Shown: piece after piece, positions 4,128 to 43,087 of the stretch
How the letters are laid out: every line of letters begins with the position of its first letter
Numbering within the stretch: position 1 is the first letter of the stretch
From: an uncultured Cetobacterium sp.
GTDB lineage: Bacteria > Fusobacteriota > Fusobacteriia > Fusobacteriales > Fusobacteriaceae
Length of the DNA stretch: 57,557 nt
Direction of reading: 5' to 3'
Assembly: GCF_947038635.1 (NCBI RefSeq)
Contig: NZ_CAMQXC010000003.1
Location: forward strand, 1 to 57,557
The notes under the pieces: model-generated
What the model was told of the DNA's origin: nothing
Database searches by the model: none
Seen by the model: the letters and a program-made list of their open reading frames with translations, nothing else
Program-made: the position numbers and the translations under genes

Positions 4128-6410
4128 TCATATTAGATTAATCGGGTCTACATCAACAACTATTCTATATTTTTTATTCTCTATTTTTTTCAGTTTATTT
4201 TCTAAAAATACTTTATACTCATTGATTTCTCTTCTATCCCCTTTTATAAATATATTACATCTATATCTTCCTTTCACTTTATAAACTAAGGATTTCATAG
4301 GTCCATAAAGCTCTACCTTCTCATGTTCAATCTCTTTAAATACCAGATGACAATACTCTTCTAATCCATATTCCTCATTTGAAGATATTCCAATATTTAT
4401 TATTTTTGAAAATGGGGGATAAAAAAGTATCTCTCTTTTCTCTATCTCTTTTTCATAAAAATTTATATAACTATTTTCCTGAATTTTTTCTATTATATAA
4501 TTTTCAGGTTGATAAGTCTGAATTATAACTTTCCCCTTTTTCTCTCCTCTTCCAGCTCTTCCAGCTACTTGAGTTATCATTTGATATGTTCTTTCACCTG
4601 ATCTAAAATCAGGGATACTCATAATTGTATCTGCATTTATTACTCCAACTAAAGTTACATTGGGAAAATGTAATCCTCTAGATATCATTTGAGTTCCAAT
4701 CATAATATCATATTTCCCACCTAAAAAATCATTATACATATTTTCATAAAAATTCTTTTCTTTTGAAACATCTCCATCAACTCTAATTATGTTTACAGGA
4801 AATCTTTTTCGAAGTTCCTCTTCTACCCTTTCAACTCCACGTCCACTAAAAGATATATTTTTGCTTCCACATTTAGAGCAATGACCTAAAAATCTTTTTG
4901 ATATACCACAATAGTTGCACTTCAAGCTATTATTACTTGCATAATAGTTTAATTTTATAGAACAATGCTCACACTCCTCCATATGTCCACATTCTTGACA
5001 TTGAACTAATGTAGAATATCCTTTTCTATTTAGAAGAAGTATTATCTGTTCTTTTCTTAAAAGTGCTCCTCTTATCTCCTCTAAAAGTTTTTCACTGAAA
5101 AAACTATCTTTCTCCTCTTTCATATCTACAATCTCTATCTCTGGTAATTTTGCATCCTTATATCTATGATCTATTTCAAAAAGTTGAAATATCCCTTTTT
5201 TAGCATAATAATAACTTTCAATTGATGGAGTTGCTGAACCTAAAACTACTTTTGCATTTTCTAATTCAGCTTTCTTTATAGCTACATACTTTGCATTATA
5301 TCTTGGTGTACTATCTTGTTTATAACTATTTTCATGCTCTTCATCTACAATAATATATTCAAGATTTTTTACAGGAGCAAAAATTGCTGAACGAACTCCT
5401 AAAACAACTCTTTTATCGCCTGTATATATACTATACCACTCTTTTGCTCTTTCTATATTAGATAATCTGCTGTGAAGTATTGCCACTTCTTCTCCAAACT
5501 CTTTTTTAAATCTTTTTACCATTTGAGGAGTTAAAGATATTTCTGGAACTAAAAATATTGATCCTTTTCCATTTTCTAAAGCTCTCTTTATAAGTTGTAT
5601 ATATATCTCAGTCTTTCCAGAACCTGTTACTCCTCTTATTAAAAAATGTCTTTTATTTGAAGTTTCAATACCACTTTTTATTCTTTCCTGCTCTGAATTT
5701 AACTTAGTATCTTCTTTATACTCTTCTTTTTCAATATCTTTTTTTAATTTCTCTTCATTAAAACTTTTTATTTTTCTTTCAAGTATTAATGTTCCATTCT
5801 TCAAATGATTTTCAATAGTTTTTTTATCAAATTTCTTTTCCAAAGTTACTTTTCCAATTTCTACTCTCTCTTGAAAATATAATTTTAGTTCTATATCAAC
5901 ATCTTCAATACCTTCTTGAAGACCATACCAATTATCTTCAATTTTCAAATAATTATTATCTAGATATTCCTGTATTTTAATTTTTGAAAATCTATCAATT
6001 AATGTTTTTTTTCTAACTAAACTTTTCTTCAAAAAATATTCTAAAATCTCATCTTTAATTAAAGTACTACTAAGATTTTTAGGTCGATAAATATCTTCAT
6101 ATTTTACTTTTACTCCTGAAGGTACTGCTGTAGAAAAAACTTGATCAAAAGGACTCATATAATAATCTCTTATCCATAAGAGTAATTTTATAAATTTTTT
6201 AGAAAAACTTAACTCTTCATATAATACTTTTTTTATTTTTAAAACTTTAAAAGTATATTCTTTATCTTTCTCCTCTTCAATAATCAGTCCAACCTTATCT
6301 TTATTCCTAAAAGATACTAAGACTCTATCTCCAATATTTATATTCTCTTCATCACTGGCATAAGTATAGAAATCTTTTGTCTTTTCTATATAGACACTGT
6401 AATATCTCAT
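4128..6410 (-). CDS. priA: Primosomal protein N' (replication restart helicase PriA)
   Basis: This SF2 3'-5' DNA helicase recognises stalled forks and reloads the replisome. The product is 760 residues. The N-terminal DNA-binding domain is followed by Walker A GVTGSGKT (260-267), the DEEH box, the threonine-serine motif GSATPS, and a zinc-binding insertion with four CxxC pairs (CQECGHMEECEHC ... CNYC ... CSKC). Motifs V and VI follow (GTQMISRGLHFP and QVAGRAGRGEKKG). It starts 10 nt after the PBP gene with GGAGAAAGTA before the ATG. Confidence 0.96.
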   Translation of the reverse strand: MRYYSVYIEKTKDFYTYASDEENINIGDRVLVSFRNKDKVGLIIEEEKDKEYTFKVLKIKKVLYEELSFSKKFIKLLLWIRDYYMSPFDQVFSTAVPSGVKVKYEDIYRPKNLSSTLIKDEILEYFLKKSLVRKKTLIDRFSKIKIQEYLDNNYLKIEDNWYGLQEGIEDVDIELKLYFQERVEIGKVTLEKKFDKKTIENHLKNGTLILERKIKSFNEEKLKKDIEKEEYKEDTKLNSEQERIKSGIETSNKRHFLIRGVTGSGKTEIYIQLIKRALENGKGSIFLVPEISLTPQMVKRFKKEFGEEVAILHSRLSNIERAKEWYSIYTGDKRVVLGVRSAIFAPVKNLEYIIVDEEHENSYKQDSTPRYNAKYVAIKKAELENAKVVLGSATPSIESYYYAKKGIFQLFEIDHRYKDAKLPEIEIVDMKEEKDSFFSEKLLEEIRGALLRKEQIILLLNRKGYSTLVQCQECGHMEECEHCSIKLNYYASNNSLKCNYCGISKRFLGHCSKCGSKNISFSGRGVERVEEELRKRFPVNIIRVDGDVSKEKNFYENMYNDFLGGKYDIMIGTQMISRGLHFPNVTLVGVINADTIMSIPDFRSGERTYQMITQVAGRAGRGEKKGKVIIQTYQPENYIIEKIQENSYINFYEKEIEKREILFYPPFSKIINIGISSNEEYGLEEYCHLVFKEIEHEKVELYGPMKSLVYKVKGRYRCNIFIKGDRREINEYKVFLENKLKKIENKKYRIVVDVDPINLI

Positions 6411-33676: not shown

Positions 33677-34138
33677 ATGAAAAAAATATTTTTATTAATT
33701 ACACTTATATTTAGTACCTTAACTTTTTCAAAAGAAGAGAATATTCAAGGTAAATGGATTACTGAGAAAGCTAAAAATGGAAACCAAATCATAGTAGAGT
33801 TTGAAAAAATAGACAATAGATATTTTGGAAAGATCATACAGTTAACTATCCCAATTTATGAGAAAGGTCATAAGTTAGAAGGAAAAACAAAACTTGATTT
33901 AGCTAATCCTGATGAAAAACTTAAAACAAGATCATTAGTTGGCATAAATTTCGTTAGTGATTTCACATACAACCCTGAAAAAGACCGTTTTGAAAATGGG
34001 TTTATTTATAATCCAGAAAATGGAAAAACTTACTACTGTTCTATCTCTTTTAAAGACCCAAATACCCTTATAGTAAAAGGAAGTCTTGATAAATCAGGCT
34101 TTATTGGATCTAAACAAATATGGTCAAAAATTAAATAA
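33677..34138 (+). CDS. DUF2147-family exported protein
   Basis: The 153-residue protein has an N-terminal signal peptide (about 1-18, ends LTFSKEE). The DUF2147 layout follows: IQGKWITEKAKNGNQIIVEF at the start, YFGKIIQL, an internal D-rich segment (KTRSLVGINFVSDF), and a C-terminal FIYNPENGKTYYCSISFKD with GSLDKSGFIG. The fold is a lipocalin-like beta barrel in known relatives. Its function is unknown. It is monocistronic, with its own promoter and a perfect terminator. TTTGGAGGAATAAA precedes the ATG. Confidence 0.85.
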   Translation: MKKIFLLITLIFSTLTFSKEENIQGKWITEKAKNGNQIIVEFEKIDNRYFGKIIQLTIPIYEKGHKLEGKTKLDLANPDEKLKTRSLVGINFVSDFTYNPEKDRFENGFIYNPENGKTYYCSISFKDPNTLIVKGSLDKSGFIGSKQIWSKIK

Positions 34139-34212: not shown

Positions 34213-36837
34213 TTATTTTGCTTTTTTCTCAGATTTTTCTTCGCTTTTCTTTTGCATAGCTAAGTACTTTTCTGGACCATAATAAGCTCTTAAGTACATC
34301 TCTTTTAAATCACTCATTAATGGATATCTTGGATTTGCTCCAGTACATTGGTCATCAAATGCATCTTCAACCATTTGATCTAATTTAGATAAGAACTCCT
34401 GCTCTGAAATTCCGTATTCTGCTATTGTTGATTTTATTCCAATCTCAGTTTTTAATTCTGATATTTTCTTTCTTAATATTTTAGCTTTCTCTTCTGGAGT
34501 TTCATTTCCTTTTGTAAATCCTAAGTAGTCAGCTAATTTTGCATAACACTCTTTTGCATGTGGATATTTATATTGTGCAAATCCTGCCATTTTAAATGGT
34601 CTATCTGTTGCATTAAATCTAATTACTTCATCAAGTAATAATGCATTTGCTACTCCATGAGGTAAGTGGAATGCTGCTCCTAATTTATGAGCCATTGAGT
34701 GACATATTCCTAAGAATGCATTCGAGAATGCCATTCCAGCCATACAAGATGCATTTGCCATTTTTTCTTTAGCTTTAACTGCTAATGCTCCACCTTTAAC
34801 TGATTCAGGAAGATATTTAAATGTTAATCTAGTTGCCTCTAATGCTAATGGATTAGTAAACTCTGATGCCATTATAGATACATATGCTTCAATAGCATGA
34901 GTTACTACGTCTATTCCTGATGCTGCTGTTAAACCAGCTGGCATTGATAACATTAATTGAGGATCTACTACTGCTACATTTGGTGTAATTTCATAGTCAG
35001 CTAATGGATATTTTACTCCTGTCGTATCATCTGTTATAACAGCAAATGGAGTTACTTCTGATCCTGTTCCTGCTGAAGTTGCAACTGCCCAGAACTCTGC
35101 TTTTTCTCCCATTTTAGGGAATTTAACTATTCTTTTTCTGATATCCATAAATGTCATAGCTAAATCTTTAAAGTTTACTTTTGGATGCTCATACATAACC
35201 CACATAATTTTAGCCGCGTCCATTGCTGAACCACCACCTAAAGCTATGATTACATCTGGATTATAGTTTCTCATTAATTCTGCACCTTTTTCAACTACAC
35301 TTAAAGTTGGATCCGCTTGTACATCTGAGAATACTCTAAAATCTACTCCAATATTTTCTAAAACTGTTGTTATATGATCTGTATATCCTAAAGAAGCTAA
35401 TTGTTGATCTGTTACAATTACAGCTTTTTTCTTTCCTTTTAATTCTTCTAAAGCCACTGGAAGAGATCCGAATTTGAAGTATACTCTTTCAGGAATTCTA
35501 AACCATAGCATATTTTCTCTCCTTTTAGCAACTGTCTTTATGTTTATTAAATGCTTAACTCCAACATTTTCAGAAACAGCGTTTCCTCCCCATGATCCAC
35601 ATCCAAGTGTTAATGATGGTGCTAGTTTAAAGTTAAATACATCTCCGATAGCTCCTTGAGCTGCTGGCATATTAATTAATGTTCTTCCTGTTTTCATTGT
35701 TTTTCCAAATAAATCAATTTTATCTTTTGCAACTAATTCATCTGCATATAAAACTGATGTATGTCCCATTCCACCAAGCTCTATTAATCTATCAGCTTTC
35801 TTTAAAGCGTCTTCAAAATTCTTAGCTTTGTACATTGCTAATACTGGTGATAATTTCTCGTGTGAAAATGCTTCTTCTAACTCAACTGATTCAACTTCTC
35901 CTATAATAACTTTTGTATTTTCTGGAACAGTTACTCCAGCCATTTGAGCTATTTTATAAGCTGATTGTCCTACGATATCTCCGTTTAAATGTCCATCTAT
36001 TACTATTGTTTTTCTTACTTTATCTACTTCGTCACCTTTTAAGATATAAGCATTTCTTGCTGTAAATTCCTCTTTTACTTTATCATAAATTGAAGCTGGA
36101 ATTATTACTGCTTGCTCAGAAGCACAGATAACTCCATTATCAAAAGTTTTTGATAATAAAATTGAGTTTACTGCCATTTTTATGTGTGCTGTTTCATCTA
36201 TTATTACTGGTGTATTTCCAGCTCCTACTCCAATTGCAGGTGTTCCTGATGAGTAAGCAGCTTTAACCATTCCTGGTCCTCCAGTTGCTAATATTAAATC
36301 TGCCATTTTCATAAGATCATTAGATGCTTGAACTGATGGCTCAGCAATCCATCCTATTATATCTTTTGGAGCTCCAGCCTTCACTGCTGCTTCTAAAACT
36401 ATTTTAGCTGCTTCTATTGTTGCATTTTTTGCTCTTGGGTGTGGAGAAAAAATAATTCCATTTCTTGTTTTTAAAGCTAATAATGCTTTAAATATTGCTG
36501 TTGATGTTGGGTTAGTAGTTGGAACGATTCCAGCTATAACTCCAATTGGTTCAGCTATTTTTTCAACTCCATAAGCTGCGTCAATTTCTATTGTTCCACA
36601 AGTTTTTGTATCCTTATATGAATTATATATATATTCTGAAGCAAAGTGATTTTTTATAACTTTATCTTCAACAATTCCCATTCCAGTTTCTTCAACTGCC
36701 ATTTTAGCTAATTTTATTCTAGCATTATTTGCAGCTAATGAAGCTTCTCTAAAAATTTCATCAACTTGTTCTTGAGTAAATTTAGAATATTCTTTTTGTG
36801 CTAATCTTACTTTTTCTATTGTATTTATTAGTGTCAT
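34213..36837 (-). CDS. adhE: Bifunctional acetaldehyde-CoA/alcohol dehydrogenase
   Basis: The enzyme reduces acetyl-CoA through acetaldehyde to ethanol and regenerates NAD+ in fermentation. The N-terminal half (1-~440) is an ALDH with catalytic Cys in NGVICASEQ (near 245). The C-terminal half is an iron-dependent alcohol dehydrogenase with GGGSAMDAAK, TSAGTGSEVTPFAV, and the metal-binding GICHSMAHKLGAAFHLPHG. In known AdhE the protein polymerises into spirosomes. Three in-frame starts crowd the site (GTG 36846, ATG 36843, ATG 36837). I chose 36837 because AGGAG is 8 nt before it. No clear Rex operator is visible upstream. Confidence 0.95.
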   Translation of the reverse strand: MTLINTIEKVRLAQKEYSKFTQEQVDEIFREASLAANNARIKLAKMAVEETGMGIVEDKVIKNHFASEYIYNSYKDTKTCGTIEIDAAYGVEKIAEPIGVIAGIVPTTNPTSTAIFKALLALKTRNGIIFSPHPRAKNATIEAAKIVLEAAVKAGAPKDIIGWIAEPSVQASNDLMKMADLILATGGPGMVKAAYSSGTPAIGVGAGNTPVIIDETAHIKMAVNSILLSKTFDNGVICASEQAVIIPASIYDKVKEEFTARNAYILKGDEVDKVRKTIVIDGHLNGDIVGQSAYKIAQMAGVTVPENTKVIIGEVESVELEEAFSHEKLSPVLAMYKAKNFEDALKKADRLIELGGMGHTSVLYADELVAKDKIDLFGKTMKTGRTLINMPAAQGAIGDVFNFKLAPSLTLGCGSWGGNAVSENVGVKHLINIKTVAKRRENMLWFRIPERVYFKFGSLPVALEELKGKKKAVIVTDQQLASLGYTDHITTVLENIGVDFRVFSDVQADPTLSVVEKGAELMRNYNPDVIIALGGGSAMDAAKIMWVMYEHPKVNFKDLAMTFMDIRKRIVKFPKMGEKAEFWAVATSAGTGSEVTPFAVITDDTTGVKYPLADYEITPNVAVVDPQLMLSMPAGLTAASGIDVVTHAIEAYVSIMASEFTNPLALEATRLTFKYLPESVKGGALAVKAKEKMANASCMAGMAFSNAFLGICHSMAHKLGAAFHLPHGVANALLLDEVIRFNATDRPFKMAGFAQYKYPHAKECYAKLADYLGFTKGNETPEEKAKILRKKISELKTEIGIKSTIAEYGISEQEFLSKLDQMVEDAFDDQCTGANPRYPLMSDLKEMYLRAYYGPEKYLAMQKKSEEKSEKKAK

Positions 36838-37065
36838 AAACATCACTCCTGTGTGAATTTTTATTTTTATAATGCTAGTATACTTGTGTTTTAGTGTTTT
36901 TTAAAATTTTTTTTCGATAATTTTTCTAATTTTTAACCATCAATTTTTGATCATTTTATTTTTTTAGACTCGTTATTCAATTTTTTGTTACTTTTATTAG
37001 ATTTTTTTACTTTATTGAGGTATATTCTATTAAGCTTTATTTTTGTAGGGGAGATGATTACTTTT

Positions 37066-38535
37066 ATGAACGAAACTCATTTAAAAAATATATCTTTAAA
37101 AAATTTAGATTTATCTGATAATTTCAAAAATTTTTTAATAAATAATTTGAATTTTGATCAATTAATAGCCGTAATAAATTTAAATGGCCATTTTTTAATT
37201 ATAGCAGGAGCAGGTTCTGGAAAAACAAGAACCATTATATACAGAGCTTTTCTTTTAATTGAATTAAAAGTTCCTTCTAAAAATATTCTGATTCTAACTT
37301 TTACCAGAAAAGCTATTAATGAAATAAAAATAAGGATTAACTCTTTTTTACCCGATTCAAATATTTGTATTGAAACTTTTCATTCTTTAGCATATAAATA
37401 TCTAAAAAAATATAGCCAAAATAAATATTTTAAAATTCTTACTGTTGATGATGCTTTAATTTTAGCTAAAAAAACTTCTCTTTATGAAGAACTTTTAAAA
37501 ATATTTTCTAAGGATATTTTAATAAAAATTATCTCTCTAACATCATCCTCTCTTTTAAAAGAATACTATTTTAAAAAGCTAGATGAAAAATCAAAAACTT
37601 TAGTTATAAATTTTTTTAATAATTTTGAAATATTAAAAAAAACAGAGAATTTCTATTCTTTTAATGATTTACTTCTTCAATTTTATAAATTATTAAATCT
37701 TAATTTAATTACTAACAATTTTCAATATATTATGATTGATGAATATCAAGATACTGATAATTTACAAGTTGATATTTTAAAATTACTAGCTAAAAATTCT
37801 AATCTCATGGTTGTAGGAGATGATTATCAAAGTATTTATGGTTTTAAAGGAACTTCCATGGAAAATATCCTAAATTTTTCCAATGAATTTTCCAATGTTA
37901 AAACTATTATTTTAAAAGAGAATTATCGAAGTACCTACCCTATTTTAAATTTATCAAATGAATTTTCTAAAAAATTAAAGTATTGTTTCAGAAAATCACT
38001 TATAACTAAAGATACATCCTTAAAAAAACCTAACTTAAATATTTTTAAAAACCATTTTAATGAAATTTCATTTATTTTTGAAAAAGTAAAAAATATTTTA
38101 GATTTAAATCCAAATGCTACAATTGGAATTCTTTTTAGAAATTTTATCTATATGGAAGAGTTTATCAAATTCTTTGAATCTTCTAATACTAAATTTAACA
38201 TTGCTTCTAATCCATTTTTAGAAAATATTTTTAAAAATAAATTTTATAATACAAATACAACTCTCACATTTTCAACTATTCATAGTTCTAAAGGATTAGA
38301 ATGGGATTATGTCTTTATTCCTCTTCTTTTAGAAGGTATCATTCCAAGTTCAATAGGTGATGCTCTAAATCTAGAAGAGGAAAAAAGACTTTTTTATGTA
38401 GCTTTAACTCGAGCTAAAAAAGAACTTTTTTTGTCTTATCCTTTATCTTTCTATAGTGACTTTGGACTATTTAAAACTCCATCTCAATTTATAGAAAATA
38501 TTAATTCTAGTTTTTTTAATATAAAAAGAGGATAG
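37066..38535 (+). CDS. Compact UvrD/Rep-like SF1A helicase lacking the 2B subdomain
   Basis: The 489-residue protein keeps every SF1 helicase motif. These are Q motif FDQ (30-32), Walker A AGAGSGKT (47-54), LTFTRKA (78-84), ETFHSLA, IDEYQDTD (224-231), VVGDDYQSIYGFKG, ENYRST (285-290), STIHSSKGLEWDYVFIP (403-419) and YVALTRAKKELF (444-455). UvrD/PcrA/Rep are ~660-720 residues; here only about 110 residues separate motifs IV and V, whereas ~270 are usual, so the 2B domain is missing. The start at 37066 follows GGGGAG by 12 nt; upstream in-frame ATGs at 36985 and 37054 lack good sites. It is convergent with holA and very AT-rich, and no partner nuclease is adjacent. Confidence 0.85.
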   Translation: MNETHLKNISLKNLDLSDNFKNFLINNLNFDQLIAVINLNGHFLIIAGAGSGKTRTIIYRAFLLIELKVPSKNILILTFTRKAINEIKIRINSFLPDSNICIETFHSLAYKYLKKYSQNKYFKILTVDDALILAKKTSLYEELLKIFSKDILIKIISLTSSSLLKEYYFKKLDEKSKTLVINFFNNFEILKKTENFYSFNDLLLQFYKLLNLNLITNNFQYIMIDEYQDTDNLQVDILKLLAKNSNLMVVGDDYQSIYGFKGTSMENILNFSNEFSNVKTIILKENYRSTYPILNLSNEFSKKLKYCFRKSLITKDTSLKKPNLNIFKNHFNEISFIFEKVKNILDLNPNATIGILFRNFIYMEEFIKFFESSNTKFNIASNPFLENIFKNKFYNTNTTLTFSTIHSSKGLEWDYVFIPLLLEGIIPSSIGDALNLEEEKRLFYVALTRAKKELFLSYPLSFYSDFGLFKTPSQFIENINSSFFNIKRG

Positions 38536-38558
38536 TTTAAAGAACTATCCTCTTTTAA
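38526..38558. terminator. Bidirectional terminator between helicase gene and holA
   Basis: AAAGAGGATAGTT-TAAAG-AACTATCCTCTTT is a 13-bp stem with A/T tracts on each side. It overlaps the last codons of both convergent genes. Confidence 0.85.
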
Positions 38559-39534
38559 AATCAATTATAAACTTTTCTATTCCTATACTCTCTTCTATTC
38601 CACCATTTTTTATTAAAAACTCAACATTTAATAATTTTTCTAGTTTTTTTAATAAAAATTGTTCATTAAATAAAGACATGTATTTTAATTTTAAAAAAAT
38701 AGGATACTCTCTAATATAACCTCTATTATTCTTAAAATATTTTTTTAATTTTTCATATGTATTTCCTTTAAAATCATTATATGAAATATTTTCTCTTAAT
38801 TCTCCACTTTTCTTTAACCCTACTAATTTTAAAGCTAAACTTAACTCTTCTGAAATTAAATACAAAAATAACATATACTCTTTACTTTTCTTTAAATAAT
38901 CTAATAACACTTCCATATTATCTTCAATCATAAAGTCTTCTACTAATTTTTTTAAATTATACTCATCACTTACTGATAAAATAGGTAGAATTTTTTCTAA
39001 TATAAATGTTTTTCCATTTAAGAAATTTTTTATTTTTTCTACTTCATTTTTTACCTTAAAGAAATCATCTCCCAAAATCTCCGCTAATTTTTCAGCTTCA
39101 TACTCAGATATTTCCAACTCTTTCTCTATAAAAAAATGTATTCCTTTTTTCTCTAAAGCTTTTCTTGCTGTAATTACTTTTCCTAATTTTTCTGCATTTG
39201 TTAAAACCTTTTTTCCAACCTCATTTATTGCTTTACCGTAATCATTTAACTCTTCTTCATAAACAACTACAACCTCTTTTTTCGTTAGATCATACTCTCC
39301 AACTATTTTTAATAGTTGATCTAGCTTTTTACTCTTTTCAGCTCTTTTTAAAACTACTAACTCCTTTGGAACAAACATAGAGTTTATTGAAATACTTTCT
39401 AAAAAGCTATCTTCCTCACTTTGAGAAGCATCATATACTTTCATTGGAATATTAGGATTTGACTTTTTTATTTTTTCCATTAACTCTTCATATTTTAATG
39501 GAAGTGGAGTGTCTCCGTAAACAAAATAAAACAT
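38545..39534 (-). CDS. holA: DNA polymerase III delta subunit
   Basis: This clamp-loader subunit opens the beta clamp. The 329-residue product has the family start FYFVYGDTPLPLKYEELMEK. SINSMFVPKELVVLKRA follows near residue 50, then VVVVYEEEL near 90, and an all-helical C-terminal third that packs in the clamp-loader collar. HolA is poorly conserved, and the call relies on length and these stretches. GGGAGATAG precedes the start. Confidence 0.85.
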   Translation of the reverse strand: MFYFVYGDTPLPLKYEELMEKIKKSNPNIPMKVYDASQSEEDSFLESISINSMFVPKELVVLKRAEKSKKLDQLLKIVGEYDLTKKEVVVVYEEELNDYGKAINEVGKKVLTNAEKLGKVITARKALEKKGIHFFIEKELEISEYEAEKLAEILGDDFFKVKNEVEKIKNFLNGKTFILEKILPILSVSDEYNLKKLVEDFMIEDNMEVLLDYLKKSKEYMLFLYLISEELSLALKLVGLKKSGELRENISYNDFKGNTYEKLKKYFKNNRGYIREYPIFLKLKYMSLFNEQFLLKKLEKLLNVEFLIKNGGIEESIGIEKFIIDFKRG

Positions 39535-41884: not shown

Positions 41885-43087
41885 ATGAAATACCTAAAAA
41901 ATGATATTTTAAATATTTTTAAAGATAGTATTAATAATAATAATTTTATAAAAGGGATTTTTTCAAATCCTACAAAAGAAAGTTCTTATAAAAAAATAAA
42001 CTTAAAACCTGTTCAAATAAAAGAAGAGTTTTTTATACAATTTGAAAGTTTTGTGGATAATAAAGCTTTTCATAAAAATGAGAACTTAATTGACAGTTTT
42101 AAAATTTTAGATGAAATTATTGATACCTTTAAACAAATTTTAATAGTTACATCTAATCAAGAGATTCAAATTTTACAAAATAAAAAAGGTTTTTCTATAA
42201 AAAGAAAAAATACTGAAAGTAAAACATTAGAGCTTTCTCATAATAAACAAAAAAATTATATCTTACAAGATAATACACCCATTCCATTCTTAATTAGACT
42301 TGGAGTTATGTCTGAAGCCGGAAAAGTTAGTAAAGAAAAATTTAATAAATTTAGACAAATAAATAGATATTTAGAATTTATTGAGGATACATTAAAAGAG
42401 TTACAAGAAAAAAAACTTGTTGGTAATTCAATGAAGATAATTGATTTCGGATGTGGTAAATCATACTTAACTTTTGCTTTGTATCATTATTTAAAAAACA
42501 TTAAAAATTTAGATATTGATGTTATAGGTCTAGACTTGAAAGAGGATGTTATTAATCATTGTAATACTATTGCTAAAGATTTGAACTTTAATAATCTTCA
42601 ATTTTTAAAAGGAGATATTAAAGACTTTGATATTTTTAAAGATGTTGATTTAATATTCTCATTACATGCTTGTAATAATGCTACTGACTACTCAATCCTT
42701 AAAGGATTAGAATTAGGTGCTAAAGCTATTTTAGCTGTTCCTTGCTGTCAGTCAGAAATAAATCAAAAAATAGACAAATCTTCTACAACACAATTAAATG
42801 GAGTTTTATCACCTTTTGGAAATCATGGTATTTTACAAGAAAGATTTAGTTCTTTAGCTACAGATGCACTAAGAGCTCTTTCTTTAGAACTTTGTGGTTA
42901 TAATACAAAGGTTATGGAATTTATAGATATGGAGCATACTCCTAAAAATATTCTAATTAAAGCTATTTTAGGTTCTCCTTCAAAAGAAAAATTAGAAGAA
43001 AAAAGAAAAGAATATGACAAATACTTAGAGTTTTTAGGTGTTAATCCACTTTTAGATAATTTACTTAAAAATTATTTTAAAAAATAA
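41885..43087 (+). CDS. Class I SAM-dependent methyltransferase (Methyltransf_32-like)
   Basis: The 400-residue protein has a Rossmann SAM-binding motif IIDFGCGKSYLTFAL (near 186), an acidic end of strand 2 (VIGLDLKEDV) and DLIFSLHACNNATDYSIL. The last, followed by AILAVPCCQSE (near 285), is characteristic of the Methyltransf_32 family, to which METTL25/GSTCD-like proteins also belong. The first ~150 residues (ahead of the fold) may bind the substrate, probably RNA, but the target is unknown. AAGGAGTTTAAT precedes the start. It is cotranscribed with the small unknown gene. Confidence 0.82.
   Translation: MKYLKNDILNIFKDSINNNNFIKGIFSNPTKESSYKKINLKPVQIKEEFFIQFESFVDNKAFHKNENLIDSFKILDEIIDTFKQILIVTSNQEIQILQNKKGFSIKRKNTESKTLELSHNKQKNYILQDNTPIPFLIRLGVMSEAGKVSKEKFNKFRQINRYLEFIEDTLKELQEKKLVGNSMKIIDFGCGKSYLTFALYHYLKNIKNLDIDVIGLDLKEDVINHCNTIAKDLNFNNLQFLKGDIKDFDIFKDVDLIFSLHACNNATDYSILKGLELGAKAILAVPCCQSEINQKIDKSSTTQLNGVLSPFGNHGILQERFSSLATDALRALSLELCGYNTKVMEFIDMEHTPKNILIKAILGSPSKEKLEEKRKEYDKYLEFLGVNPLLDNLLKNYFKK

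Follow-up and report, generated by a model that had tools for sequence, protein, structure and literature searches.

The 2B subdomain of UvrD-family helicases is described, in the available text of a 2026 review, as autoinhibitory and as the interface for dimers and partners, and its deletion activates Rep monomers (PMC13238157). In the present study, one gene of an uncultured Cetobacterium sp., lying in the window (the whole stretch of 57,557 nucleotides that was analysed), raised the question of whether the Fusobacteriaceae possess a natural UvrD/PcrA-like helicase without 2B, how such a protein may have come about, and what it would do in a cell that also carries full-length PcrA.

The gene and its helicase motifs

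A check of the reading frame and its translation gave an uninterrupted ORF of 489 codons at 37066-38535 (+). The mechanical ORF list offers an alternative upstream start, TTG at 36985; the 489-aa form is matched by same-genus orthologues from residues 1-8 onward, and by one of them from residue 22. The promoter scan returned 21 sites versus 16.0 (sd 3.8) in shuffles, and zero terminators. The 489-aa protein matches the Pfam UvrD-helicase profile at E 1.1e-56 (profile 1-270 of 271). Its match to UvrD_C (E 6.4e-30) is split into two stretches, the best of which spans positions 283-347 of the 350 in the profile; the PcrA of the same genome matches UvrD_C in one stretch, from 1 to 349. As judged by Pfam and residue counts, all SF1A motifs (Q, I, Ia, II-VI) are present with their catalytic residues, which agrees with an earlier note on this DNA, in which all helicase motifs had been placed within 489 residues; motifs I-VI are intact. 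The features, with their counts in the short forms discussed below, are these:

37066..38535, + strand: helicase gene, 2B-less SF1A (UvrD/PcrA-like), 489 aa (profile, spacing, model, superposition)
37047..37053, + strand: putative ribosome-binding-like AGGGGAG, 12 nt 5' of the ATG (direct reading)
37201..37227, + strand: motif I / Walker A, residues 46-54, with AGAGSGKT at 47-54 and K53 (G50, G52, K53 and T54 each in 21/21 short forms)
37738..37752, + strand: motif II, DEYQD, residues 225-229 (D225, E226, Q228 and D229 each 21/21)
37918..37935, + strand: motif IV, ENYRST, residues 285-290, with R288 (21/21)
38182..38259, + strand: site of the absent 2B subdomain, residues about 373-398, a linker with one short helix at 383-388 (alignment, model)
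38272..38301, + strand: motif V, STIHSSKGLE, residues 403-412 (H406, K409, G410, L411 and E412 each 21/21; T404 is T in 15 and S in 6)
38380..38415, + strand: motif VI region, residues 439-450, with R449 (21/21; A450 19/21)
38413..38472, + strand: strands 450-464 / 467-469, a pin-like hairpin with Y463 (DSSP of the model; Y463 21/21, F462 13/21)

The two strands of the last feature occupy what is presumably the position of UvrD's separation pin.

Absence of the 2B subdomain

Motif IV starts at residue 285 and motif V at residue 403, a spacing of 118 residues, compared with 272-274 in six Fusobacteriaceae PcrA proteins and 273 in the PcrA of the same genome; the earlier note had given about 110 instead of about 270, so the short spacing stands and its figure of 110 gives way to 118. 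In the alignment, the helicase runs level with PcrA up to about residue 378 and then passes straight to motif V, leaving a linker of about 25 residues, in which the short helix is aligned opposite the end of the 2B stretch. The AlphaFold2 model, built from a 27-row alignment (pLDDT 86.2, pTM 0.82), contains a strand at 353-357, a helix at 360-372, a short helix at 383-388 and the motif V strand at 400-404, with helix 383-388 as the sole listed element between the preceding helix and the motif V strand. VIA-align superposed 451 of the 489 residues on PcrA (1qhg, 622 long), with Z 39.6 at 2.0 A. For D. radiodurans UvrD (4c30_D), the corresponding values were 445 residues and Z 42.7 at 2.5 A. The model displays two RecA-like motor domains with an inserted 1B, superposable on PcrA and UvrD. 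On the PcrA side, 171 residues of 1qhg were left unmatched, which, going by domain limits, we take to be about the size of 2B. The 1B subdomain is slightly smaller (178 residues from Walker A to motif II versus 191-192 in PcrA proteins), and motif VI is followed by 44 residues, as against 123-143 in the six PcrA proteins, so the C-terminal tail of PcrA is missing too; this tail is, we assume, the RNA polymerase-binding part.

The helicase, then, is without the 2B subdomain and retains intact motor domains 1A and 2A, the catalytic motifs and the pin-like hairpin. The earlier note had proposed exactly this loss from the letters alone and had suggested a structure prediction, a superposition on PcrA/Rep and a search for orthologues of equally short length. 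The 2B-less model does superpose on PcrA and UvrD, and such orthologues were found in sister species, so that spacing, profile coverage, model and orthologues all bear the proposal out.

Distribution and gene neighbourhood

For the carrier census, 98 genomes of the phylum were searched, 96 of them with a match at E 1e-50, and 61 family genomes were searched separately. Among the matches listed, a copy distinct from PcrA, long forms counted, occurs in 27 of the 98 phylum genomes: in 12/12 of Cetobacterium (genus g1; 11 as a single frame, and in G004 as parts on two contigs), in one of two of genus g2 (absent from G002), in 11/12 of genus g4 and in all three of genus g12. The listed matches of the other genomes are frames of more than 600 residues, mostly 700-760 (PcrA size) or more than 900. 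One genome, G023, with a cut frame at a contig end and no match in the phylum-wide search, was left out of the carriers. The 43-row alignment excluded duplicates (L035-L041), the cut G004 copy (L012) and some lower-scoring or longer hits; the tree, with L053 and L061 left out, had 41 rows.

The spacing of motifs IV to V in the short forms is 92 residues in g2, 94-120 in g1, 105-107 in g4 and 117-125 in g12. Genus g4 carries both states, namely six short copies, four intact long ones (G024, G025, G027 and G028) and one long copy in two pieces (G026), and the spacing in the long copies reaches 227, 237 and 237 in the three of the four intact ones that were measured. In G026, the long positional orthologue (L085:9375-11125) consists of two separate frames, and it is therefore broken or mis-sequenced there; together with the absence from one g2 genome, this suggests that the gene is dispensable in places. 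The full-length PcrA of the source genome is a 756-aa frame on another contig (G000:C31). Against the NCBIfam pcrA model, the short helicase scores 251.7 bits and this PcrA 819.5 bits, both under the cut-off of 911.2.

In the window, the helicase is flanked by a divergent adhE (34216-36846; NCBIfam bifunctional acetaldehyde-CoA/alcohol dehydrogenase, 1382 bits) and a convergent holA (38548-39534). The latter falls below the curated cut-offs (NCBIfam 66.5 of 80 bits, Pfam 23.2 of 27); it is, judged by its sequence, a divergent delta subunit. The order adhE-helicase-holA is kept in nine of the ten Cetobacterium genomes whose flanks were seen, and also in g2 (L073); it differs in g12. The sole Cetobacterium copy of the ten with neighbours other than adhE and holA is L038:5953-7374, beside which only a small gene homologous to 33677-34135 of the window is retained.

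At ten g4 loci with long flanks, short and long copies alike lie in the order holA, permease-type gene, oxidoreductase-type gene, helicase, and through this shared order the short and long copies are positional orthologues. The oxidoreductase-type gene stands 5' of the helicase on the same strand at nine of the ten loci (it is missing in G021); one permease and one oxidoreductase were confirmed by Pfam, and the downstream side of G028 is different. The remark of the earlier note that the helicase has no partner gene thus describes Cetobacterium well, with its divergent adhE and convergent holA in nine of ten genomes, and does not extend to g4 with its same-strand neighbour.

Two side observations concern the further surroundings. 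At two g12 loci (L079:10959-11954 and L039:3989-4984), a 332-aa gene lies directly 5' of the helicase on the same strand, between helicase and P-type ATPase, that is, in the position of holA in the window; its L079 copy has no Pfam match. The window gene at 41885-43084 has weak matches to PADLOC mad2 (40.5 bits) and to a BioC methyltransferase (33 bits), and its homologues adjoin the P-type ATPase in L067-L071, L073, L079 and L035-L037.

Artefact, phage, plasmid and defence origins

Could a longer protein be hidden here by a frameshift, a misassembly or a wrong gene call? We regard the chance of this as negligible: the frame is open across the 2B site, the short form was found again in genomes of four genera, and the long form carries its insert in frame. 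The insert of one long orthologue, searched in 61 family genomes, gave clear matches in the five long-form genomes only, weak matches (E 0.0009-0.007) in five other family genomes and none in the source genome, and a frameshifted or split gene was discarded on the open frame and this missing match. The earlier note had itself named a complete 2B in the predicted structure, or a nearby frameshift, as what would speak against it; the model has no 2B and the frame runs open through its site.

A phage origin was also rejected. The best PHROGs match, phrog_1967, scores 305 bits, but the PcrA of the same genome reaches 456 bits; none of 58 matching phage records attains 80% query coverage, and IMG/VR gave just two distant loci. 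The IMG/VR contig L087 (5971-7026; also L088) encodes a 351-aa UvrD-like protein, matched by 960 bases over query residues 36-451, which seems to be without most of 1B as well as 2B. For plasmids, six records matched, zero of them with 80% coverage, and the Fusobacterium animalis record (H17) proved to be a 2214-base UvrD-domain gene, i.e., a full-length one. Gabija or another defence system was likewise dropped after a PADLOC scan of nine neighbours, eight of which had no match and one a weak mad2 match; gajA had no match at E 1e-5 among these nine.

Conservation and selection

The count covered 35 positions in 21 short orthologues. Among the 33 that lie in motifs, hand-picked when the invariant columns of an 8-row alignment were already known and hence a biased sample, 31 are invariant; T404 is replaced by S in six orthologues, and A450 by T in one and by P in another. 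In the hairpin, Y463 never varies and F462 is found in 13 of the 21. With its nearest orthologue (91% identity), the helicase gives a dN/dS of 0.15; comparison with three others gives 0.32, 0.23 and 0.35, values that are rough for the farther pairs because their synonymous distances are large (0.7-1.4); holA gives 0.06, 0.11, 0.10 and 0.14 for the same four pairs in order. Being well below 1 but above holA, these ratios point to purifying selection together with faster evolution than the neighbour.

History of the 2B site

In a tree of the helicase core without the 2B columns, g1 groups with g2 (100/99) and the long and short copies of g4 group with g12 (89/99), while all 24 Fusobacteriaceae rows stand apart from PcrA (100/99); a holA tree of 19 rows also joins g4 with g12 (97/98). 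The fewest changes between the short and long states on the tree are two. In the AU test, a single loss with the short rows as one clade was not rejected (p 0.118), and the fit was just as good with g4 as one clade (p 0.501). Run from three rows, hhalign showed no homology between the insert of the long forms and canonical 2B (probability 2.4%, versus 99.9% for PcrA against other 2B). Pairwise global z-scores were 0.9-3.9; true 2B pairs reach 11.8-19.5, and reversed controls lie between -0.9 and 1.5. By these comparisons, the insert seems to resemble canonical 2B only weakly.

One reading of this pattern, which we put forward tentatively and as somewhat improbable on balance, is that a single chromosomal gene of Fusobacteriaceae lost 2B more than once among its orthologues, the long g4 copies being survivors with a shrinking 2B, a history that would have yielded vertically inherited, unregulated mini-helicases with a job distinct from that of PcrA. 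A single loss of 2B, with an insert gained later by the long g4 forms, explains two changes just as well, and given this minimum of two, repeated loss is not favoured.

Comparison with known 2B-less helicases

A natural helicase of this kind is already on record. PcrAs (MPN340) of Mycoplasma pneumoniae, published in 2013, is the 60.5 kDa product of a 1590-bp gene and a natural 2B-less PcrA with ATP-dependent helicase activity; in the available text, the proteins of that paper, assayed as MBP fusions, are bipolar helicases of high activity that somewhat prefer 3' tails, and a gel-shift test is described as without significant DNA binding (PMC3720892). Like PcrAs, with which it was compared by description, our helicase has the SF1A motifs, no 2B and a full-length PcrA in the same genome; unlike PcrAs, reported as specific to M. 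pneumoniae and as adjoining full-length pcrA, it occurs in four Fusobacteriaceae genera and has adhE and holA as neighbours, and some of its positional orthologues carry an insert at the 2B site. With PcrA, UvrD and Rep it shares the motor fold, motifs I-VI, 1B and the pin-like hairpin, and it differs from them in having neither 2B nor the C-terminal tail, in line with a pcrA score of 252 versus 819 bits for the PcrA of its own genome.

RepDelta2B, a laboratory deletion of E. coli Rep, has the same composition of motor plus 1B without 2B; according to the available text, it unwinds well, is deficient in protein displacement and has no accessory helicase function in vivo (PMC6158625). GajB, of 494 residues, is described in the accessible part of its paper as having an accessory domain at the place of 2B (residues 314-416), GajA as partner and no pin (PMC10681800). 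Our protein is like GajB in size, UvrD-like motor and PADLOC match, and unlike it in having one short helix instead of a helical accessory domain of about 100 aa, with the pin seemingly kept; GajB was not among the structure matches listed, which has no bearing on this likeness.

A further set of short UvrD-like proteins was found in uncultured Bacilli (L049 at 4801-6285, L050, L051 and L057), with 444-526 residues, a motif IV to V spacing of 76-102 and 27-36% identity to the helicase in the matched parts; in the tree, a long branch leads to a clade of their own. The model of L049 is also without 2B (pLDDT 83.2, pTM 0.85). Three of the four Bacilli genomes have, in addition, a longer frame (695-720 residues) that matches the UvrD domain strongly; the fourth, G100 (L051; assembly about 1.0 Mb), gave the short form and one weak match, with no strong match to full-length PcrA.

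Since natural 2B-less PcrAs has already been published, the helicase adds a second lineage, retained more widely, to a known kind. A literature search, mostly of open papers, returned no title or abstract on the Fusobacteriaceae 2B-less proteins. What is new is the conserved Fusobacteriaceae lineage, its positional orthologues with an insert, and the separate lineage in Bacilli.

Proposed function and rival explanations

We consider it fairly likely, by analogy with its relatives, that the gene encodes a conserved SF1A helicase without 2B which acts as a 3'-5' ATP-driven motor, unwinds DNA as a monomer and works beside full-length PcrA. Translocation from 3' to 5' driven by 1A and 2A is a property of the SF1A family, and in the present protein these domains would move along single strands at the expense of ATP, with strand separation at the pin. 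It would have no 2B brake, no 2B dimer interface and no tail for RNA polymerase. Unwinding by the monomer is expected because 2B is autoinhibitory and dimer-forming in Rep, UvrD and UvrD1; and, lacking both 2B, the site of MutL action and, in UvrD1, of the second subunit, and the tail, the protein should stand outside the usual partner control. From RepDelta2B and the M. pneumoniae PcrAs, a constitutively active, non-autoinhibited helicase may reasonably be inferred, and the same analogy would predict loose DNA binding, ready unwinding of short duplexes and poor stripping of proteins, hence a limited, partner-free role alongside, and not replacing, full-length PcrA. That the protein has a cellular job of its own, as the earlier note suspected, is favoured indirectly by the separate full-length PcrA, the conservation of the gene and purifying selection.

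In the main rival reading, which we judge unlikely, the protein acts as a DNA-dependent ATPase or translocates on single strands and does not unwind duplexes, which it could not engage without 2B; its role would be that of a sensor or remodeller, and GajB might be a roughly comparable case. GajB keeps the UvrD-like fold with, in the available text of its paper, neither unwinding nor DNA binding (PMC10681800), and RTasHel (205 bits) and GajB (194 bits) head the PADLOC matches, the best 25 of 50 families being considered. NCBIfam pcrA (252 bits) and phrog_1967 (305 bits; own PcrA 456) nevertheless score higher, the hairpin with its invariant Tyr is retained, eight of the nine scanned neighbours have no PADLOC match beside the one weak mad2, and natural 2B-less PcrAs does unwind DNA according to the text available (PMC3720892).

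We deem it quite improbable that the missing 2B or regulatory surface is provided in trans by a partner protein. The same-strand oxidoreductase-type gene at nine of ten g4 loci and the 332-aa gene 5' of the helicase at the two g12 loci (L039, L079) might be such partners, but the neighbours vary by genus, Cetobacterium shows a divergent adhE and a convergent holA in nine of ten, and the insert of one long orthologue, searched in 61 family genomes, has no match in the source genome. Evolution faster than that of holA, the two-piece G026 copy and the absence from G002 would fit a decaying paralogue retained by chance, with 2B loss as the first step of degeneration; yet catalytic residues invariant in 21/21 divergent short orthologues, a neighbourhood kept in nine of the ten Cetobacterium genomes seen and a dN/dS well below 1 make this very improbable. 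The active, partner-free helicase remains our preferred reading.

Significance

The regulation of UvrD-family helicases by 2B was argued anew in 2026, and much of the evidence, as given in the available text, comes from laboratory deletions and mutants (PMC13238157). Orthologues of the same genus and the same neighbourhood, with and without an insert, allow one to ask what a cell gains by losing 2B, and also whether natural 2B-less motors escape the protein-displacement defect of RepDelta2B. If repeated loss were true, such same-genus pairs with and without the domain would constitute a natural experiment on the purpose of 2B. More broadly, the one published natural case found, in a single Mycoplasma species, is now joined by a lineage conserved in Fusobacteriaceae and by another in uncultured Bacilli.
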